A stretch of 28,449 nt of DNA from a virus. This document shows positions 11,727 to 27,830 of the stretch, in pieces (within the stretch, counting starts at the first letter, position 1; each line of letters begins with the position of its first letter). Where the stretch lies: the IMG/VR virus record IMGVR_UViG_3300029309_000262, positions 1-28,449 of that record. The stretch is one strand, 5' to 3'. The notes under the pieces are model-generated. The model did no database searches. It had not been told where the DNA came from and worked only from the letters and a program-made list of their open reading frames with translations. The position numbers and the translations under genes are program-made.

Positions 11727-11753
11727 AAAAAAAAAGAGGACCAATTGTCCTCT
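11727..11753 (-). terminator. Intrinsic terminator after the tail-tube-like gene
   Basis: On the minus strand AGAGGAC and GTCCTCT pair (7 bp) around AATTG and are followed by nine T (plus 11735-11727). It lies 24 nt beyond the stop of the tube-like gene. Genes further down (portal onward) would be reached only by read-through. Confidence 0.85.
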
Positions 11754-14307: not shown

Positions 14308-14448
14308 TTATACTTTACCAATACCTTGAGCTTCAAGAGTACCATCACAACACTTCTTAGAATAGGTCTTTCCATCAGGACAAAGACAACCTCTTCTTGA
14401 TGTTCTTGGTGAAGAAAAACTTAAGGTCGCATTTTTTCTTCTTCTCAT
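14308..14448 (-). CDS. Small Cys-motif conserved protein (46 aa)
   Basis: The frame starts at 14448, overlapping the protease stop by 4 nt (ATGA). It reads MRRRKNATLSFSSPRTSRRG, then CLCPDGKTYSKKCCDGTLEA, then QGIGKV. The motif CLCPDGKTYS.KCCDG...AQGIG is one I recognise as recurrent in small proteins of flavobacteria and their phages. Four cysteines (CxC and CC) could bind one metal or form two disulphides. The N-terminus is arginine-rich. Its job in the head gene cluster is unknown. Confidence 0.75.
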   Translation of the reverse strand: MRRRKNATLSFSSPRTSRRGCLCPDGKTYSKKCCDGTLEAQGIGKV

Positions 14449-15959
14449 TTTGATGATTTAGGATGTTTAGCTGGAAGAATGTCATAGTCTGTTGTATACT
14501 TTGCATTTTGTGGTCTTCCATTCTTCACTAAATACAAAAACGCATTGACTCGTGCAAATGCCCATTGTGAAGGACTATTTACTCTTGGAGAGCTACTCCT
14601 GTTAAATGCACCAAGACCTCTTTGGAAGACCGAAGCTAACATACCGACTGTAACACCATAACCTAATTTTTCTTTATATCTCTTGTTAAAGTCATCAGCT
14701 TTTTTCTGTAATGCTTTTCTATCTTTTGCAGAAACCTTTGCTCCTCTTTTACCTTTAGCTGTACCCCTAGCTGTACCCCTGCCTTTTGGGTTTTTATTAG
14801 GTGTGTCTGATGCTGGTGCTTTTGGTGATCTTCTTATACCACCTCTTGGTCCAACCTCTGCAAGTGCGTGTTTCTCGCAAGGCATATACCAAGTCTGTCC
14901 TTCGTAATCGTGAGTGTGATGACCTTTACAACCAATATCAGTTGCTATTTTTTCTGCTTGTTCTTTAGTAGCATAAGCAAGTCTATCGTTAATTATTGCA
15001 AAGTTATCATTTATTTTTTCAGAATATAATTCTACAGATAATTCATCTAAACCTTTTAGTTTTGACTCTACCCAATTGAACATAGATTTACCTCCCCAAA
15101 GTAAATAAGATATAGTACCACAAGCTTCATTATCTCCTTCTTGATAATAAGTTTCTGCTCTTGATAAATATGAGTATATGCGTTTAAGAGTTGGTACTGT
15201 AAAGTTTTCACCTCTTTCTAATTGTCTTGCTCTTGTTTTACCAACAGCAGTAGCACATTTATTGTTGACAGCCTTATTATATTTAATACCTCGTATTGCA
15301 TTGTTTTTTGCAGACTCTGGATAATCTCCGTAAGATTCTAATTCTACTTCTTCTGTTAGTGCAGCAAGAACTTCTCGTAATTCATATTCTGCGTTTAGTT
15401 CATTTATTTTCTCTTCTATACTTTCTTTTGGTCTTTCAAGTCCATCAGCAAAATAACCTTCTATAGAAAATCCTTTTACTTCACCATCTTTTACAGCTTT
15501 CCATACTTTATCATTTAATACTTTCATAGAAACCATCCAAGTACCTTTTGGTAAGTCAAATCCATAAGCAGCAGCTTTATCTTTCTTTGGATCTTCTATA
15601 AGCCAAGATTCAACTACAGACATATCTGTTAATTCAAATGCGTGTTCATATGTAGAGTTTTTGTGTTTGCTTTTTATAAAGAATAGTTCTGAAGCTCTTC
15701 TAACTGTATCTTCAGAGAAATATATATAGTAATCATTATCATCATCATCAGCACCTTTTCTAAATATCTTCTTGTTAGGTATAAGTGCAGGACCCATAAT
15801 AATTCTTTGCTCAGCGTCAACTTCAGCAAGTTTTACATCTTTGTGTTCTTTAAGTGCAATAAAATCCTCTTGAATTGCAGGATTCTCAACGACAGAAATA
15901 GCTTCAATACCGCTAATTTCATTTTCTTCGTCTATAATAAGTTCTATTATCTTTTCCAT
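14445..15959 (-). CDS. XkdF/S78_2-type prohead protease fused to extra head modules
   Basis: A 504-aa multi-module protein. Residues 1-170 are an XkdF-like (peptidase S78_2) prohead protease: TYEHAFELTDMSVVESWLIE (103-122, with catalytic candidate His106) and VKGFSIEGYF (161-170, candidate Ser165). Residues about 211-302 are a helical module (YPESAKNNAIRGIKYNK, then TVPTLKRIYSYLSRAETYY, then ISYLLWGGKSMFNW). Residues 344-364 hold a Cys/His cluster (CKGHHTH and CEKHAL) that may bind zinc. A basic linker RGTARGTAKGKRG (about 394-407) leads to a last module (428-500) with VFQRGLGAFN and QWAFARVNAFLYLVKNGRPQ. The protease would cut scaffold; the other modules are seen in phage head proteins, but their fusion is notable. 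Confidence 0.75.
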   Translation of the reverse strand: MEKIIELIIDEENEISGIEAISVVENPAIQEDFIALKEHKDVKLAEVDAEQRIIMGPALIPNKKIFRKGADDDDNDYYIYFSEDTVRRASELFFIKSKHKNSTYEHAFELTDMSVVESWLIEDPKKDKAAAYGFDLPKGTWMVSMKVLNDKVWKAVKDGEVKGFSIEGYFADGLERPKESIEEKINELNAEYELREVLAALTEEVELESYGDYPESAKNNAIRGIKYNKAVNNKCATAVGKTRARQLERGENFTVPTLKRIYSYLSRAETYYQEGDNEACGTISYLLWGGKSMFNWVESKLKGLDELSVELYSEKINDNFAIINDRLAYATKEQAEKIATDIGCKGHHTHDYEGQTWYMPCEKHALAEVGPRGGIRRSPKAPASDTPNKNPKGRGTARGTAKGKRGAKVSAKDRKALQKKADDFNKRYKEKLGYGVTVGMLASVFQRGLGAFNRSSSPRVNSPSQWAFARVNAFLYLVKNGRPQNAKYTTDYDILPAKHPKSSK

Positions 15960-15993: not shown

Positions 15994-17973
15994 TTATCCA
16001 ATAGATGCACCTTCAATCGTACTGCGTTCAAGTTCCTGTGCAGTTGTAACGTCTGATGCTACAACAAATGCTTTTATAGGTTTATCTTCTGCTCCTGCAA
16101 TTGTTTGTGCTAACTGGCTTGCTTGTGTTGCACCTACCACGTTAAATGCTGGAGGTGTAACAGCAGAAGATGCTCCTCCACCTGAACTTACACCAGAGAG
16201 AGGACCTGACAATGCTTTTATTTGCTGTTCTGCTTTTGTACGGGCTGACACAATAGTTGCAATAACACCTCCTATTGAAGCTGCATATGCTGCAATACCA
16301 AGTGGACCTAGTTGTTTTAAAAACTCACCCAAAGACATAGTAGCAGCTGCAACACTACCCACCCCATCACTTACTGTTTTTGTCATAGCTCCTTTTAACT
16401 GTAAAGTTATTTTTGCCAATTCCATTGCAGCTTCTATTTGGAACATATCTCTTTCAAACCTTATTTGTTTTTTTCTGACTTTTCTTGTTTCAGAGTCATT
16501 TTTTTTCAATAATCTTTCTTTCTCACTTGCAGTTAAATTGTCATTGTTCAGTATTACATCTCTTTCAGTATCTAATCTTTTTATTTGTGCATCTAATGCT
16601 TGTTTTTGTACTTGAGCTATTTTACCGACTTGAGTAGCTATGATAGAAGCTAACTCTATTCTTTTACGCATCTGCTCTTGTATACGGTTCATTTCGTCTT
16701 CGTGCATTTGTTGCATAATAGAGGCGACAGCTAATCTTCCATCTAACATTCTTTGTAAACTATTAGTGTCCGCTTCTTCTTCTACTTTTCTTACTAAATT
16801 TACTTCTTTTGCTGTTTTACGTCTTTCAATTCTCTCTGTTGTTCTTGTTTTTTTTCTGTCACGAGTAGCTGTTTTTTGTAACTGAGTTAAATCTGCTATT
16901 GCTGACTGTGTTATTGCACTTGTCTCTGTTGCTATTTTATCAAACAAATTTAATCTCTGTTGGTCTAGTAATGGTCCAAAACCTAAAACTGTACCTGAAA
17001 AAAACCTTTTAAATGCACTTACATTTTCATCAAGAAACTTTTTTACTTGTTTAGGATCACTCCTATCAACACCTTCTATAAGATTTTGTAATCTAAATTT
17101 TTCAGCATTTTGTGCAACTAGAGCATCAATTTCTGCTCTAAGTAGTTGTTGTTCTATATAATCTTCTATTGCTAATCTTGTTGCTTCAAGATTATCTTTG
17201 TTAGCAATTTCTTCTTCATTTAAGTCTGGCAGTATTTTAGCTAGTTCGTCAACTGCATATAATTGTGCTTCTCTTGAAGCTGTAGAATCATCTAAAACAG
17301 TGATTAAAGAAAGTAGTCTTTGTTCCTCTGCTCTTAGTTCTTTTTCTGTATCTTCTAATGCTTCTGCTAATTCTCTAGCTGATTTAGCTGCTTCATCATT
17401 ACCTCTTATAAAGTCTAATATTTTATCTCCATAGGCAGTTACTAGAGCTATTAATACTTGAAAAGCTAATATTAAAGCACCACCTTTTTTTAGTTGTTTT
17501 AATAATATTTTAAAAGAGGTAGACGCATCACCTGTCTTACGAGATAAATTACCAAAATTAGAACCTAATTGTGATATGTTATTAGTAACAGCGATTATAC
17601 CAAAAGGTAAATCTGAAATCAATCTACCAAATTCAGTTATTGTATTTGAAGCTAAACCTTGATTACTAATAAAATCTGCATTTACTTGTACGTCAGCTTT
17701 TCTTGCAGATGTCAATTCTCTAAGCTGAGCTTCTACTTGAGTTATTTTAATTGAGTATTCTTGATAAGCTTTTGATGTAGTAGCAGTAGCAGCACGTTCT
17801 GCTTTTAATGCCTTGATTTCATCAAGTATAGCTTTCTCTGTACCTGCTTTTGCTTTAGATAAGTTTTTTTGTGATTGAGCTGCTTGATCTAAAGATTCTT
17901 TCAGTTGTTTTATTTGAAAAGTACCATCATCCTTTAACTCAACGGATATTATTATTTTTTTATTGTCCTCCAT
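15994..17973 (-). CDS. Tail tape measure protein
   Basis: A 659-aa, mostly helical protein. The N-terminal coiled coil (about 15-90) is followed by a conserved block SNTITEFGRLISDLPFGIIA (about 107-126) and a first hydrophobic segment GGALILAFQVLIALVTAYGD (about 163-182). Long charged coiled coils run from about 195 to 540. A second hydrophobic stretch FLKQLGPLGIAAYAASIGGV lies about 550-570. The C-terminus has PPAFNVVGATQASQLAQTIA and AFVVASDVTTAQELERSTIE, typical of flavobacterial phage tape measures. By length, using about 1.5 Angstrom per residue, the tail would be near 100 nm. It starts inside the end of the 49-aa gene upstream. Confidence 0.85.
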   Translation of the reverse strand: MEDNKKIIISVELKDDGTFQIKQLKESLDQAAQSQKNLSKAKAGTEKAILDEIKALKAERAATATTSKAYQEYSIKITQVEAQLRELTSARKADVQVNADFISNQGLASNTITEFGRLISDLPFGIIAVTNNISQLGSNFGNLSRKTGDASTSFKILLKQLKKGGALILAFQVLIALVTAYGDKILDFIRGNDEAAKSARELAEALEDTEKELRAEEQRLLSLITVLDDSTASREAQLYAVDELAKILPDLNEEEIANKDNLEATRLAIEDYIEQQLLRAEIDALVAQNAEKFRLQNLIEGVDRSDPKQVKKFLDENVSAFKRFFSGTVLGFGPLLDQQRLNLFDKIATETSAITQSAIADLTQLQKTATRDRKKTRTTERIERRKTAKEVNLVRKVEEEADTNSLQRMLDGRLAVASIMQQMHEDEMNRIQEQMRKRIELASIIATQVGKIAQVQKQALDAQIKRLDTERDVILNNDNLTASEKERLLKKNDSETRKVRKKQIRFERDMFQIEAAMELAKITLQLKGAMTKTVSDGVGSVAAATMSLGEFLKQLGPLGIAAYAASIGGVIATIVSARTKAEQQIKALSGPLSGVSSGGGASSAVTPPAFNVVGATQASQLAQTIAGAEDKPIKAFVVASDVTTAQELERSTIEGASIG

Positions 17974-25100: not shown

Positions 25101-25525
25101 GAGAAAGATGGTAATATATCGTTAGTGATTGTTAATGTTGCAGTAAATTGAGCTGATGTAGCAAAGTTTACTTTAAACACAGGTGATGTTACTGTTGTTC
25201 CATCAGGTGCTGTGGCACTTACAGTATATGAAAATGTTTGCTGTGCCGCACCTCCTCCTTGTGCTTCTGTAAATGTAATATCTTGTGTAGCACCAGTTGC
25301 ACTTCCACCAGACCAAGTATATGTCCCACCAGAAGGAACAAAGTTTAATGGTTTTGCTCTTAGAGTTATATTTGAAGAAAAGGTACCTTGTCCTAGACCG
25401 ACTCTTTCTGAACCGTCTGCGTTAACTTGTACAATCTCCATTGATAAGCTTTGTTCTCCTACACCTTCTGCTCCTGTTGCTGTTATGAAGTAAGGACTTC
25501 TTGAGTTTACTTTAACTGTTGACAT
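22190..25525 (-). CDS. Giant modular adhesin/tail-tip fibre with two Cys repeat families
   Basis: A 1111-aa, Ser/Thr-rich, beta-domain protein. It opens TVKVNSRSPYFITATG, typical for flavobacterial phage adhesins. Ig-like units lie at about 40-120 and 540-640, and a Calx-beta-like unit at about 230-325. Family A, four units: Cys352-Cys418, Cys455-Cys528, Cys664-Cys731, Cys1035-Cys1107. Each opens AC, runs through a Y/F-rich segment with an LYSD-like turn (for example GVYLYSDNTLSTKY) and closes with a Cys strand. Family B, three units: C751/789/823/826, C852/881/916/919 and C940/973/997/1000, each ending C-x2-C (ECVGD, DCVTCIGG, DCVACN). It ends VEICGPVQ. Disulphides or metal clips would rigidify a receptor-binding fibre. 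Family resemblance and role are inferred. Confidence 0.7.
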   Translation of the reverse strand: MSTVKVNSRSPYFITATGAEGVGEQSLSMEIVQVNADGSERVGLGQGTFSSNITLRAKPLNFVPSGGTYTWSGGSATGATQDITFTEAQGGGAAQQTFSYTVSATAPDGTTVTSPVFKVNFATSAQFTATLTITNDILPSFSSAGYTGTVTRNATNMTASVDTLIKEETTTYTVTGVNTDAFSFDIALSVATGYAASPALAASTASFSGNFSGADVSLTSTLTGTLALSDTYILTPSVTSATEGSAFTISLTTENLADNSTVPFAITGVSAGDLRRGSLSGSFQVFENKAEIEFEAIKDQTSEQPFETFTITLSDISPTVSTSVKIYDAAGQVTPSTVLVSPTGRTVATVACADTAAETAYFILLDGQTELGNGVTLFSDQSLETPYASDGRYYKIGSSNNGIIGAVADGRISGYVACPTLITSCNIEESSNVPNTAVVSSSFATVAGPQGTNACALIADTEVYYNGAITEGAGLYTQRASDNSLSAPFGGTDNWYKLILTCSDGTPQEHWANILSYPPGYVSRIFVCGSDVEPTTTITSSARVTISMSTVDGNNQGFAFVSQRVKLVAVAENITNPTYQWTKGSTSGSQSNISGETESTLIINEVGGGGETQTSAGNVFYNCKVSGVGVTDLTATTSKSITWEARPSFTLRFASTASASNTACSSGTTVTIHGDRDAKTAFCVGNQFFANADGTGALSAGTYSDSTSGTNNNFRYIEASGIAGPCINYGCAGEPVSQPTSNIQKVAVRRCEDQTNPGRLEYIIFDNFEYQLGNILRFNDFGQTGGAGCYEIIEIFSDSTTVPSPNFTLQTSDLHRSQPYGTCAECVGDTEVTTDIDALIDPNKYYGAYRLCGSTGGTLLYVVSNSSLPNVFRIGANTQTCRHRVYSIHNNVGDVNAYSPDALVFEDLAGTPFNDCVTCIGGSTAPSATPLAGKRTYEQCDDSSQTIVFGHTDNLTAAQFQAQYPTVAYNGVCYKESASASATSTINIDDLTVYSDCVACNAVVNPPTITPPSEPSDVKSIRISTNTDTSTTDACNEIDTFPQTVYYTGIFSDGVYLYSDNTLSTKYSTTTSNQFAKTETNIVFKIGRASSFSDPVAEGQVYDVEICGPVQ

Positions 25526-25988
25526 TATTATTTATTTCTGATTCTAAGTCTTTTAAATAACCTTCTTTTATCTCTTGTGTTATTTCGTCTTTATATTTTT
25601 TATCTATGTAATCTAATATGTTAGCTCCTTTATATGCAAATTGTTTTATAGTACCATTAACCATTATAGCCTGTTGAATCGATTTAATCATTTTAGCTTT
25701 GCTGTTTTGACTATTCATAGGTTGCAGTCCTTTAGCTTCAGCCCATTCTTCTATTTTATTATAAGGTGGTTTTTTGCCAGGTAGAGTTCCTTTGTCAACA
25801 GCATTAAAGTATTCAGCTGCAAAGATGTTTAGTGTGACAGATTTAGCAGAGGCAAATACAGTACCGCTTATACTATTTCTTAATCTCCTAGTTGCATTTA
25901 ATTTATTTGCATCTAGTTGATTTTTTATATCAGTAGTTATCTTGGTCCTTAATCTGTTTAGTGCTTCAGCTGTAAAAGTATAGACCAT
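25512..25988 (-). CDS. Neck / HK97 gp10-like tail-completion protein
   Basis: A 158-aa helical and strand protein. The block EYFNAVDKGTLPGKKPPYNK followed by IEEWAEAKGL (about 60-89) is the pattern GxxP..xPP...I..W...KGl of HK97 gp10-like/neck proteins. The N-terminal helix (TAEALNRLRTKITTDIKNQL) and the Ser/Val strand SAKSVTLNIFAAEYFNAV support it. It overlaps the adhesin gene by 14 nt and shares one base with the tail-terminator-like gene. It probably joins head and tail. Confidence 0.75.
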   Translation of the reverse strand: MVYTFTAEALNRLRTKITTDIKNQLDANKLNATRRLRNSISGTVFASAKSVTLNIFAAEYFNAVDKGTLPGKKPPYNKIEEWAEAKGLQPMNSQNSKAKMIKSIQQAIMVNGTIKQFAYKGANILDYIDKKYKDEITQEIKEGYLKDLESEINNNVNS

Positions 25989-26449
25989 TAGCAGAGAGAT
26001 AATTCATTTGTTGGAACTTGTATATCTACAGTCATACCCCATCCTGCTAATTGATTCTCATATTTATCTAACATAGGTTCTGCAGTTACACTTGTAATTA
26101 CTTGGAAGTTATCAGAGAAAGCATCTCCTCTTCTTAAGTTTTGTTGTAAGTCATTTACTACTTGTAGCTGTGTATTTAGTACATCTTGTAAATTATCATT
26201 ACCAAACATCATATCTTCTGTTTGTTTCTCTTTTGTATAATCTACTATGTCTAAACATAACACTTGTAAAGTAGCTGTCATAATTCTGTCTGTAAATGTG
26301 ACATTGCCAAACACAATATGAGCAAGTGGATAGATAGTGGTTTTATTTAGATCTACTTCAAGTATGTCACCGAAGGTGACGGTTTTTGTTGTGCCGTTAG
26401 CTCTTAGTATTGTTTTTAATTTATCTAGTACTGTATAAACTTGTCTCAT
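25988..26449 (-). CDS. Tail terminator-like protein
   Basis: A 153-aa alpha/beta protein. Blocks are TVTFGDILEVDLNKTTIYPL (about 23-42) AHIVFGNV, then VLCLDIVDYTK (about 63-73), NDNLQDVLNTQLQVVNDLQQ (about 84-103) and YENQLAGWGMTVDIQVP (about 130-146). The pattern LCLDIVD, then NDN.QDVLNT, then ENQLAGW is one I associate with tail-terminator genes of Bacteroidetes phages. Its ATG overlaps the stop of the frameshifted T extension (ATGA), supporting translation of that extension. Caps the tail tube by inference. Confidence 0.7.
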   Translation of the reverse strand: MRQVYTVLDKLKTILRANGTTKTVTFGDILEVDLNKTTIYPLAHIVFGNVTFTDRIMTATLQVLCLDIVDYTKEKQTEDMMFGNDNLQDVLNTQLQVVNDLQQNLRRGDAFSDNFQVITSVTAEPMLDKYENQLAGWGMTVDIQVPTNELSLC

Positions 26450-26700
26450 CTTGTATTTTGTTTTATCATTTTTCTCTCTAGTTCGTTTTTCTCTTTTTCA
26501 AACTCTAACCAAGTTAAGCATTGAAATAAGGAAAGTTTTGTAACGTCTTTAAATTTTGTTGGGTCGCCTTGAGCAAGTCCGTAAATTGATTGATACCAAC
26601 CCCATTTTGCTCCAAAATTTGCTGAAGCTCCGAGTCCTCCTTCAACTGACTCCCCAAATAATCCATCATATGTTTCGACAACTCGCTGCCTAAACGGTAA
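26446..26700 (-). CDS. T extension of the G/GT tail assembly chaperone (-1 frame)
   Basis: The -1 frame relative to the G gene is open from 26700 to a TGA at 26448-26446. It codes 84 residues including VETYDGLFGESVEGGLGASA, then NFGAKWGWYQSIYGLAQGDP, TKFKDVTKLSLFQCLTWLEF and EKEKNELERKMIKQNTR. The phrases KWGWYQSIYGLA, D..KF..VT and LTWLEFEKEK are strongly protein-like and match the second domain of tail-chaperone GT proteins in flavobacterial phages, as I recall. There is no good start codon of its own; fusion to G by -1 slippage gives a 261-aa product (177 + 84). The stop overlaps the next ATG (ATGA), which closes the apparent gap between genes. Confidence 0.75.
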   Translation of the reverse strand, partial: LPFRQRVVETYDGLFGESVEGGLGASANFGAKWGWYQSIYGLAQGDPTKFKDVTKLSLFQCLTWLEFEKEKNELERKMIKQNTR

Positions 26701-27230
26701 AAAAAAACCGTTGCTCCTAGTGCTACGTTTACAGGAGCATCTAACATCACGTCTGAATATTTATCTGATCCTTCATAGTCTTCAATTAAGTATAACTCTT
26801 TTTTCTCAAATACAACTGGTCTGTATAATACAGCTAATGCTTTGTGCATCTCTTGCCAGTCAGATATGTATTTATCTAAATCAATAAACTCACCTAAAGA
26901 TATATCATCAAGCTTAGGTATAAAACCAAACTTTACTGTTACACCTTTTGGATCTGTCATCTCAAAGGTTCTTTGTAGTGGTGTGTTTTCTTTAAACAGT
27001 TCTGCAATGTGTGCTATAATCCCACTAAATTCAGTTAGAGGTAAATCGTATGCTTGTTTTAATGTTATACCGCAAAAGCACTCTAATAGTTTTACATTTG
27101 CAAAGTCTATTTCTTCTTTTGTAGGTTCTTTGCCTTCTTCATACTTTACAGTCTTTATATACTTTTGATACTGTCTAAGAGATATTCCAGATAACTCTTT
27201 TGGGATGCTTAGGGTGAATGTTTTACTCAT
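26514..27230 (-). CDS. Tail assembly chaperone, G form
   Basis: A 238-aa protein in the unshifted frame. The body (1-177) has FTLSIPKELSGISLRQYQKY, then FANVKLLECFCGITLKQAYD (about 43-62), KLDDISLGEFIDLDKYISDW (about 105-124) and MHKALAVLYRPVVFEKKELY (about 127-146), then VNVALGATVFF. The pattern LGEFIDLD..I.DW..MHKA.AVLYRP is a known phage family in Bacteroidetes. Unlike lambda G, the unshifted product keeps another 61 codons after the slip site (LGSELSKHMMDYLGSQL onward, ending QNFPYFNA). It would coat the tape measure during tail assembly. It is the first gene of the late operon; no consensus promoter is visible just upstream. Confidence 0.75.
   Translation of the reverse strand: MSKTFTLSIPKELSGISLRQYQKYIKTVKYEEGKEPTKEEIDFANVKLLECFCGITLKQAYDLPLTEFSGIIAHIAELFKENTPLQRTFEMTDPKGVTVKFGFIPKLDDISLGEFIDLDKYISDWQEMHKALAVLYRPVVFEKKELYLIEDYEGSDKYSDVMLDAPVNVALGATVFFYRLGSELSKHMMDYLGSQLKEDSELQQILEQNGVGINQFTDLLKATQQNLKTLQNFPYFNA
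26699..26707 (-). promoter_or_regulatory. Slippery U-run for programmed -1 frameshift
   Basis: Nine consecutive T on the minus strand, read GTT-TTT-TTT-TAC in the zero frame. This contains the heptamer U-UUU-UUU (X-XXY-YYZ). Slipping back one base leads to TTA-CCG-TTT and the open T frame. The site is codons 175-178 of G. Confidence 0.75.
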
Positions 27231-27416
27231 ATCTATATAACTATCAATTATGTTATTGTAATATAATACTAATGTACAACAAAAATTAAAAACACAGTTT
27301 AATAGATATATGGTTATTTATTAAGACAGAATTTTATATCTTAGAACTATATTTATAAAGATTCACCAGAATTGTATTAAATCGATAAATAATCATTTTT
27401 CATATTTGTTTAGTTT

Positions 27417-27451
27417 AAGCCCACGTAAACATCCTTACTGGGCTTTTTTTT
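27417..27451 (+). terminator. Plus-strand intrinsic terminator
   Basis: AAGCCCA (27417-27423) pairs with TGGGCTT (27439-27445). Inside, GTAA pairs with TTAC around ACATCC, with one bulged C, and eight T follow (27444-27451). The direction is opposite to all firm genes. No plus-strand gene is visible to its left, so it might end a small RNA or block antisense transcription. Confidence 0.7.
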
Positions 27452-27487
27452 GATATGTGTTTGAATTTATGAAAGTGGATAACTCAA

Positions 27488-27547
27488 GACGTAGATAATG
27501 CATTTTACGTCAACTAATAAAAAATTACCTACTTTTTACGTTTACTA
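27488..27547. repeat. Operator-like repeat cluster
   Basis: Two direct copies of TTTTACGT-NN-ACTA begin at 27503 and 27534, 31 bp apart (about three helical turns). The first copy also forms an inverted repeat GACGTA...TACGTC (27488-27511). The geometry suggests protein binding on one face of the DNA. No binding protein can be named. Confidence 0.4.
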
Positions 27548-27561
27548 TCTAAGTTTAGTTA

Positions 27562-27593
27562 TTGAGTTTATTGTAAAGTATATTTTACATTTG
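27562..27593 (+). promoter_or_regulatory. Possible plus-strand promoter overlapped by a palindrome
   Basis: TTG (27562-27564), a 21-nt spacer and TACATTTG (27586-27593) match the Bacteroidetes consensus. The inverted repeat TGTAAA-gtatat-TTTACA (27572-27589) covers the spacer end and part of the -7 element, as an operator would. The only plus-strand ORF behind it is the 31-codon frame at 27735. Confidence 0.4.
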
Positions 27594-27676
27594 ATAAGTA
27601 GTAGAAAAAAGAAGAGATTTTTATATACAAAAAAAAACTACCTATGATTATTAGATAGTTATAAAATAATTGGAAT

Positions 27677-27703
27677 AAAAAAAACAGCCCATTTCTGAGC
27701 TGT
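27677..27703 (-). terminator. Terminator with GAAA tetraloop after the 102-aa gene
   Basis: On the minus strand ACAGCTCA and TGGGCTGT pair (8 bp, one G-U) around GAAA and are followed by eight T. It ends the first transcription unit, about 68 nt after the stop of the 102-aa gene. Confidence 0.85.
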
Positions 27704-27734
27704 TCATAAACATAATTAACCTAAGTATTAACCT

Positions 27735-27830
27735 ATGAAAAAAGGTTTCTTAAATCGTTTAAAAAGGTGGTTATTTAACAAATTCTTTAACTTCTTTTTG
27801 TTTGCAGTTTTCTATTTTATTTTTTCTTAG
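27735..27830 (+). CDS. Possible plus-strand membrane peptide (31 aa)
   Basis: The frame reads MKKGFLNRLKRWLFNKFFNF then FLFAVFYFIFS. A basic amphipathic start and a strongly hydrophobic aromatic end form a plausible membrane peptide. Its second half is antisense to the last 60 nt of the 102-aa gene, so the codons may be forced by that gene. A promoter-like element lies about 140 nt upstream. Weakly supported. Confidence 0.25.
   Translation: MKKGFLNRLKRWLFNKFFNFFLFAVFYFIFS

Follow-up and report, generated by a model that had tools for sequence, protein, structure and literature searches.

Does the run of nine T's inside a probable virion-assembly gene mark a programmed change of frame, and if so, is it the ribosome or the RNA polymerase that slips there? 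The window, that is, the whole stretch of DNA analysed, is a viral record of 28,449 bases in which nearly all large ORFs lie on the minus strand. On that strand the zero frame of a 238-aa gene reads GTT TTT TTT TAC at 26708..26697, with the T run at 26707..26699, as proposed in the original prediction. Inspection of the -1 frame confirmed that it is open for 84 codons past the slip point, that it ends in an ATGA shared with the next gene, and that it spans an otherwise empty gap of 64 nt (26450-26513) between the two genes. The features of the locus are as follows.

26514..27230, minus strand: gene 'G', the zero-frame ORF of 238 aa; residues 1-177 are common to the fusion and are followed by a 61-aa zero-frame tail, 'Z'
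26700..27230, minus strand: N domain of 177 aa common to both products, ending at the slip site (AlphaFold model; VIA-align row HK97 2OB9)
26699..26707, minus strand: slip site of nine T's, with the heptamer T TTT TTT at 26706..26700
26446..26700, minus strand: 'T' domain in the -1 frame, 84 aa and a stop, lacking its own start codon (ORF reading, homology)
26446..26449, minus strand: ATGA, shared by the stop of T and the start codon of the following gene (sequence)
25988..26449, minus strand: next gene, 153 aa, same operon, function unknown (PHROG 30964)
25512..25988, minus strand: gene of 158 aa, weakly matching unnamed PHROGs as well as a head-tail adaptor PHROG (E 0.065)
27682..27705, minus strand: terminator-like hairpin upstream of G (consensus scan only)

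The open stretch of the -1 frame begins at 26763, includes the T run and ends with the stop at 26446. The part beyond the slip (26700) codes for 84 aa, LPFRQRVVETYDGLFGE...KWGWYQSIYGLAQGD...LTWLEFEKEKNELERKMIKQNTR, the codons after the -1 step being LPFRQRVVETYDGLFGESVEGGLGASANFGAKWGWYQSIYGLAQGDPTKFKDVTKLSLFQCLTWLEFEKEKNELERKMIKQNTR, followed by the stop. A fusion 'G-T' would thus consist of 177 + 84 = 261 aa, and the unshifted G of 238 aa, which are the two sizes that had been predicted. In 0.135% of trials with the gene's own codons shuffled, the -1 frame was open across all 61 codons of the zero-frame tail.

Viral contigs were first scanned with the fusion as query, which gave 79 loci, 39–96% identical in the N part and 49–98% identical in the T frame. 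In all 79, N and T were offset by -1, with T9 or T10 at the junction. The set was then widened by five further viral scans (N/T alignments or single proteins as queries), by a scan of genome contigs and by one of 299 genomes of a single host family, and loci were scored with profile HMMs. All 411 scorable loci, which represent 324 non-identical sequences and form 173 clusters at 80% identity or 68 at 60%, had the -1 offset and a T run of either nine or ten, with no other length seen. One of them, L057, carries indels in the N part, ahead of the junction, with the local slip unchanged; another (L277) is cut before T. The -1 frame, which the original prediction had read as a conserved protein, has homologues in hundreds of related phages, and the recoding site is real and deeply conserved. 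Related loci include the isolate phages P12024S and P12024L of Nonlabens (Persicivirga). Copies are also present in Bacteroidota MAGs and in a prophage, on a large contig of a flavobacterial chromosome, in which G comes after a terminase gene. Judging from these isolate, MAG and chromosomal copies, the hosts are flavobacteria, marine ones in the case of this phage, and their relatives. The N domain matched PHROG 32199 in 31 of 31 relatives and the T domain matched PHROG 38404 in 17 of 31, both families being listed as of unknown function.

The surroundings of the gene are also kept. The ATGA overlap was found in 105 of the 170 cluster representatives where it could be read, and the order G/T, a gene of about 150 aa, a gene of about 160 aa is the same in P12024S and in a prophage. 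Upstream of G in the window, about 540 nt (27231-27770) between a 102-aa gene and G hold no minus-strand ORF of 60 aa, and contain the terminator-like hairpin (27705-27682) together with promoter-like sites. This segment probably serves as leader of the operon that holds G/T and, given the hairpin upstream of G, a new transcription unit probably starts with G/T. Another T9 run in coding orientation (A9 on the plus strand) is present in the window at 11727-11735; it lies in a short intergenic stretch after a 182-aa putative tail tube gene, and is therefore no recoding site by itself.

Could the junction be something other than a fusion point? The annotation of P12024S has two neighbouring hypothetical genes in the corresponding segment, and PHROGs keeps N and T as two families, as would be expected if T were made separately, by internal initiation or reinitiation, and the fusion were absent. 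Yet the T frame has no ATG, GTG or TTG ahead of its conserved part in 127 of 173 clusters, the window locus included, and an ATG occurs there in only five; moreover, the conserved T sequence begins exactly at the T run, and run and offset are invariant. An internal start of T was ruled out by the missing start codon in most clusters, so that two separate genes are a very improbable reading. Homopolymers are also error-prone and can vary in length by DNA slippage, and the run might accordingly reflect a sequencing error, a decayed single-frame gene, or a phase-variable tract that differs between genomes. Such explanations are still less credible, because the identical offset is seen in 411 loci from independent samples, isolate genomes and a chromosome, and because T10 comes about by base changes that extend the run at its edge, and in no case by a frame-restoring indel. 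The sequencing error in the nine-U run that had been raised as a caveat to the original prediction is thereby excluded.

Comparison of 31 divergent members showed that T is conserved as a protein, with F3, F29, W33, W35 and Y36 invariant. The third-base diversity at T codons 3, 4 and 7 was 0.00, 0.05 and 0.00, versus 0.66 in N. Third positions of T are second positions of the zero frame, where these three codons fix the L, G and L of a motif YxLGxxL; this motif would extend the final helix of the modelled N domain. Further along the zero-frame tail, whose length ranges from 25 to 83 aa, the third positions of T vary more freely. Since T is conserved as a protein and the zero frame is constrained just past the slip, the unshifted and the shifted proteins are both under selection.

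Inspection of the T run relative to the codons revealed six registers among the 173 clusters: xTT TTT TTT Txx (142 clusters, T9), xTT TTT TTT TTx (5, T10), this same pattern placed one codon further upstream (16, T10), TTT TTT TTT CTG (4, T9), TTT TTT TTT T(A/G)x (5, T10), and GGT TTT TTT TTG (1, exactly T9). In the last case, a divergent relative (L331:2004-2012), a Gly codon GGT stands ahead of the run and nine T's are restored on the 3' side by way of TTG. Of the clusters with a codon other than TTT at the third place upstream, 148 of 148 use TTT for the last Phe. TTC, TTG or TTA is found at that codon in only 16 clusters, each of which has an extra upstream TTT that gives T10. A TTC at this place would in most cases change neither protein (Phe in one frame; Leu, TTA to CTA, in the other), and TTC makes up 18.8% of the Phe codons in these genes.

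To estimate the number of long runs expected from coding alone, a codon-usage null was used that kept the amino acids of either frame and a U_UUU_UU(U/C) heptamer constant, flavobacterial ribosomes being assumed to handle U_UUU_UUC as those of E. coli do. At least nine T's were predicted for 57.6 of the 68 clusters at 60% identity, against 68 of 68 observed. With clusters treated as independent, the excess has a P of about 10^-5.5 for the 68 clusters and 10^-12.6 for the 173. Elsewhere in these phages, no run of at least nine T's was found in 407 genes with 91,176 codons, against an expectation of 3.9; those genes avoid T7 and T8 runs as well, in every phase rather than just in that of ribosomal slipping. 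In 96.5% of clusters the +1 frame, which would be entered upon loss of one U, meets a stop after about five codons or fewer, although this may simply follow from the conserved TTA-GGN codons. Run length, rather than the heptamer, is thus the conserved element.

We then looked for elements that stimulate ribosomal frameshifting. No local RNA structure was detected downstream of the slip by pseudoknot-free folding of 60-nt windows over about 120 nt (mean z -0.07, n=77), and upstream SD-like elements were not enriched among relatives (16% versus 14% in the control). Two candidates present in the window were discarded: an upstream SD-like AGGAG, which is not enriched among relatives, and a flanking hairpin AACGGT-T8-ACCGTT, whose upkeep across relatives does not exceed chance (p 0.06-0.39). 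Stimulatory structures are also absent from some bacterial frameshift cases (PMC4066793).

Taken together, the six registers, the lack of U_UUU_UUC at sites with two Phe codons and the lack of stimulators point to slippage by RNA polymerase. Bacterial RNA polymerase slips with high efficiency on nine A/T and has an RNA-DNA hybrid of 9-10 bp (PMC5009743), and in many bacterial genomes selection against slippage sets in at A/T runs of 9 nt (PMC1088944). In the proposed scheme, the polymerase would slip on the T9-T10 run and add one U in a fraction of the transcripts (T9 to U10). An ordinary ribosome would then read on into T on the U10 transcript, making the 261-aa G-T, and the unaltered transcript would give the 238-aa G. 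A transcript that had lost one U would meet a stop within a few codons and yield only a truncated G. We consider it probable that the gene makes two lengths of one chaperone-like protein by means of T9-T10, most likely through polymerase slippage, and that these are most likely tail chaperones. The frame arrangement, its conservation, the constraint on both frames and the kept run length are observed here; the choice of polymerase over ribosome, the chaperone role and the proportion of the products are inferred. With slightly less assurance, we also favour the broader view that in this widespread flavobacterial phage lineage the proportion of the two tail chaperones is set at transcription, with T9-T10 matched to the 9-10 bp hybrid, in place of a lambda-like ribosomal frameshift.

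The main alternative is classical -1 ribosomal frameshifting at U_UUU_UUU, the third position being strictly U and the flanking T's being held by hydrophobic residues, and it was this that the original prediction had put forward. The conserved change of frame and the heptamer that it invoked are both present: a perfect U_UUU_UUU in the right phase exists in every locus, so that ribosomal slipping could take place, and G/GT genes as a rule rely on it (PMC5009743, PMC4493119). In the main register the flanking T's are second positions of V/L/I codons and of L/F codons of the -1 frame, and in many cases the amino acids alone yield about nine T's (mean 0.87 per site). A flavobacterial ribosome strict for UUU in the A site would account for part of the absence of TTC, and the avoidance of T runs in other genes may stem from replication slippage. 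The ribosomal level of the shift, however, is not established by these data. U_UUU_UUC is among the most efficient heptamers in E. coli (PMC4066793), whereas here TTC is tolerated only where the run is lengthened upstream. T9-T10 is held in six registers, at the P of about 10^-5.5 given above for clustering at 60%, and a strict UUU combined with hydrophobic residues explains poorly how the registers are coupled, the GGT case among them. Neither a stimulatory structure nor an SD-like element was found, and T7 avoidance elsewhere is not limited to the slipping phase. Frameshifting by the ribosome is therefore a possible but less likely explanation; polymerase slippage is favoured over it, and both may contribute.

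Precedents for the preferred reading, slippage by the polymerase, exist outside phage tails. As in Thermus thermophilus dnaX, IS elements with 9A/9T and Shigella mxiE/spa13, an A/T homopolymer of at least about nine is kept free of indels across homologues, irrespective of register, another frame closes soon after it, and ribosomal stimulators are unneeded (PMC1088944, PMC5009743, PMC3711429). Unlike these, the present case concerns a virion-assembly gene of flavobacterial phages and is known from sequence alone. A search of the open-access literature for a tail-chaperone gene that uses transcriptional slippage returned none, which is weak negative evidence. We know of no reported tail-chaperone gene that does so.

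What, then, does the protein do? As in lambda gpG/gpGT, HK97 gp13 and TP901-1, a zero-frame protein and a start-less -1 extension share an N domain and are encoded among virion genes; the -1 frame overlaps the 3' part of the gene and is conserved among relatives, which is the arrangement by which G/GT genes are recognised. The AlphaFold model of the N domain (pLDDT 88.9, pTM 0.80) gave no match in the PDB with Foldseek at E <= 0.001. With VIA-align, the HK97 tail assembly chaperone 2OB9 ranked second of 784 chains for this model, a weak match (Z 3.2, rmsd 2.9, 59 residues). The T model was of low confidence (pLDDT 70.9, pTM 0.48) and its VIA rows, generic helical matches, were set aside; Pfam and PDB sequence searches returned nothing credible. 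A weak fold match in Flavobacterium phage 6H was left out as well, its sequence being TGT TTT TTC TAT with no extended -1 frame directly after. Three uncultured-phage proteins of 226-241 aa in BFVD (A0A6J5SVK3, A0A6J7WDG4 and A0A6J5N3F3) matched the N and T models alike, again weakly, and some relatives may carry the two domains in one frame, free of any slip.

Based on the architecture, the context of operon and virion genes and the weak fold match to HK97 gp13, G and G-T are most likely a tail assembly chaperone pair. On the lambda pattern, G would coat the tape measure protein and T would recruit the tail tube protein. Working in the manner of G/GT is well supported as an architecture, rather than as proof of membership in the lambda family, and there are clear differences from the lambda type: a conserved T9-T10 instead of a GGGAAAG-type heptamer (PMC4493119), no stimulators found, an unshifted protein that runs about 60 residues past the slip, and a location near terminase and neck genes. 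Concerning the last point, the usual position of G/GT genes, between those for tail tube and tape measure, is not strictly defining, and it is not the one seen here. The tape measure candidate of the window (15994-17973; PHROG 25337, E 4.9e-7) is separated from G by five genes, and in P12024S and the prophage G comes after the large terminase gene. Directly after the tape measure candidate, at 14445-15959, the window encodes a 504-aa protein with an N-terminal region like a head maturation protease and a long extra C-terminal part. The location of G, the Z of only 3.2 and the absence of Pfam or PDB sequence matches would also fit a real recoding event in some other two-length structural or assembly protein, such as a neck or head-tail joining factor. 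In contrast, a C-terminal extension made through a programmed -1 shift within a virion operon is a hallmark of G/GT genes, and a solved tail chaperone ranks second of 784 chains, albeit on only 59 residues; we hold the other function to be unlikely. The chaperone assignment in the original prediction thus stands as the most likely one, in a place that differs from that in lambda, where the gene adjoins the one for tape measure.

Genes 38 and 39 of the Nonlabens (Persicivirga) phages P12024S and P12024L are homologous to N and T (26-30% identity), with the junction CTT TTT TTT TAT, and differ from the window gene by a zero-frame tail of only 25 aa. They were deposited as two hypothetical proteins; in the P12024S record (JQ823122.1, 23136-23830; L080:8007-8701), P12024S_38 and P12024S_39 are separate entries. 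By homology, the two are one recoded gene, which corrects the annotation of both phages. Likewise, a likely function is obtained for PHROG 32199 and PHROG 38404.

G/GT frameshifting is the textbook case of ribosomal recoding. As to its kind, a probable tail chaperone of the G/GT sort, the present gene is ordinary, and the unusual part is the evidence that favours transcriptional slippage. A single-base difference, TTT to TTC, would separate the two mechanisms. If slippage by the polymerase is true here, the recoding mechanism has been switched for the same job, as is known for dnaX; selection would then act to keep the proportion between the two products, with the decoding level at which it is set being interchangeable.
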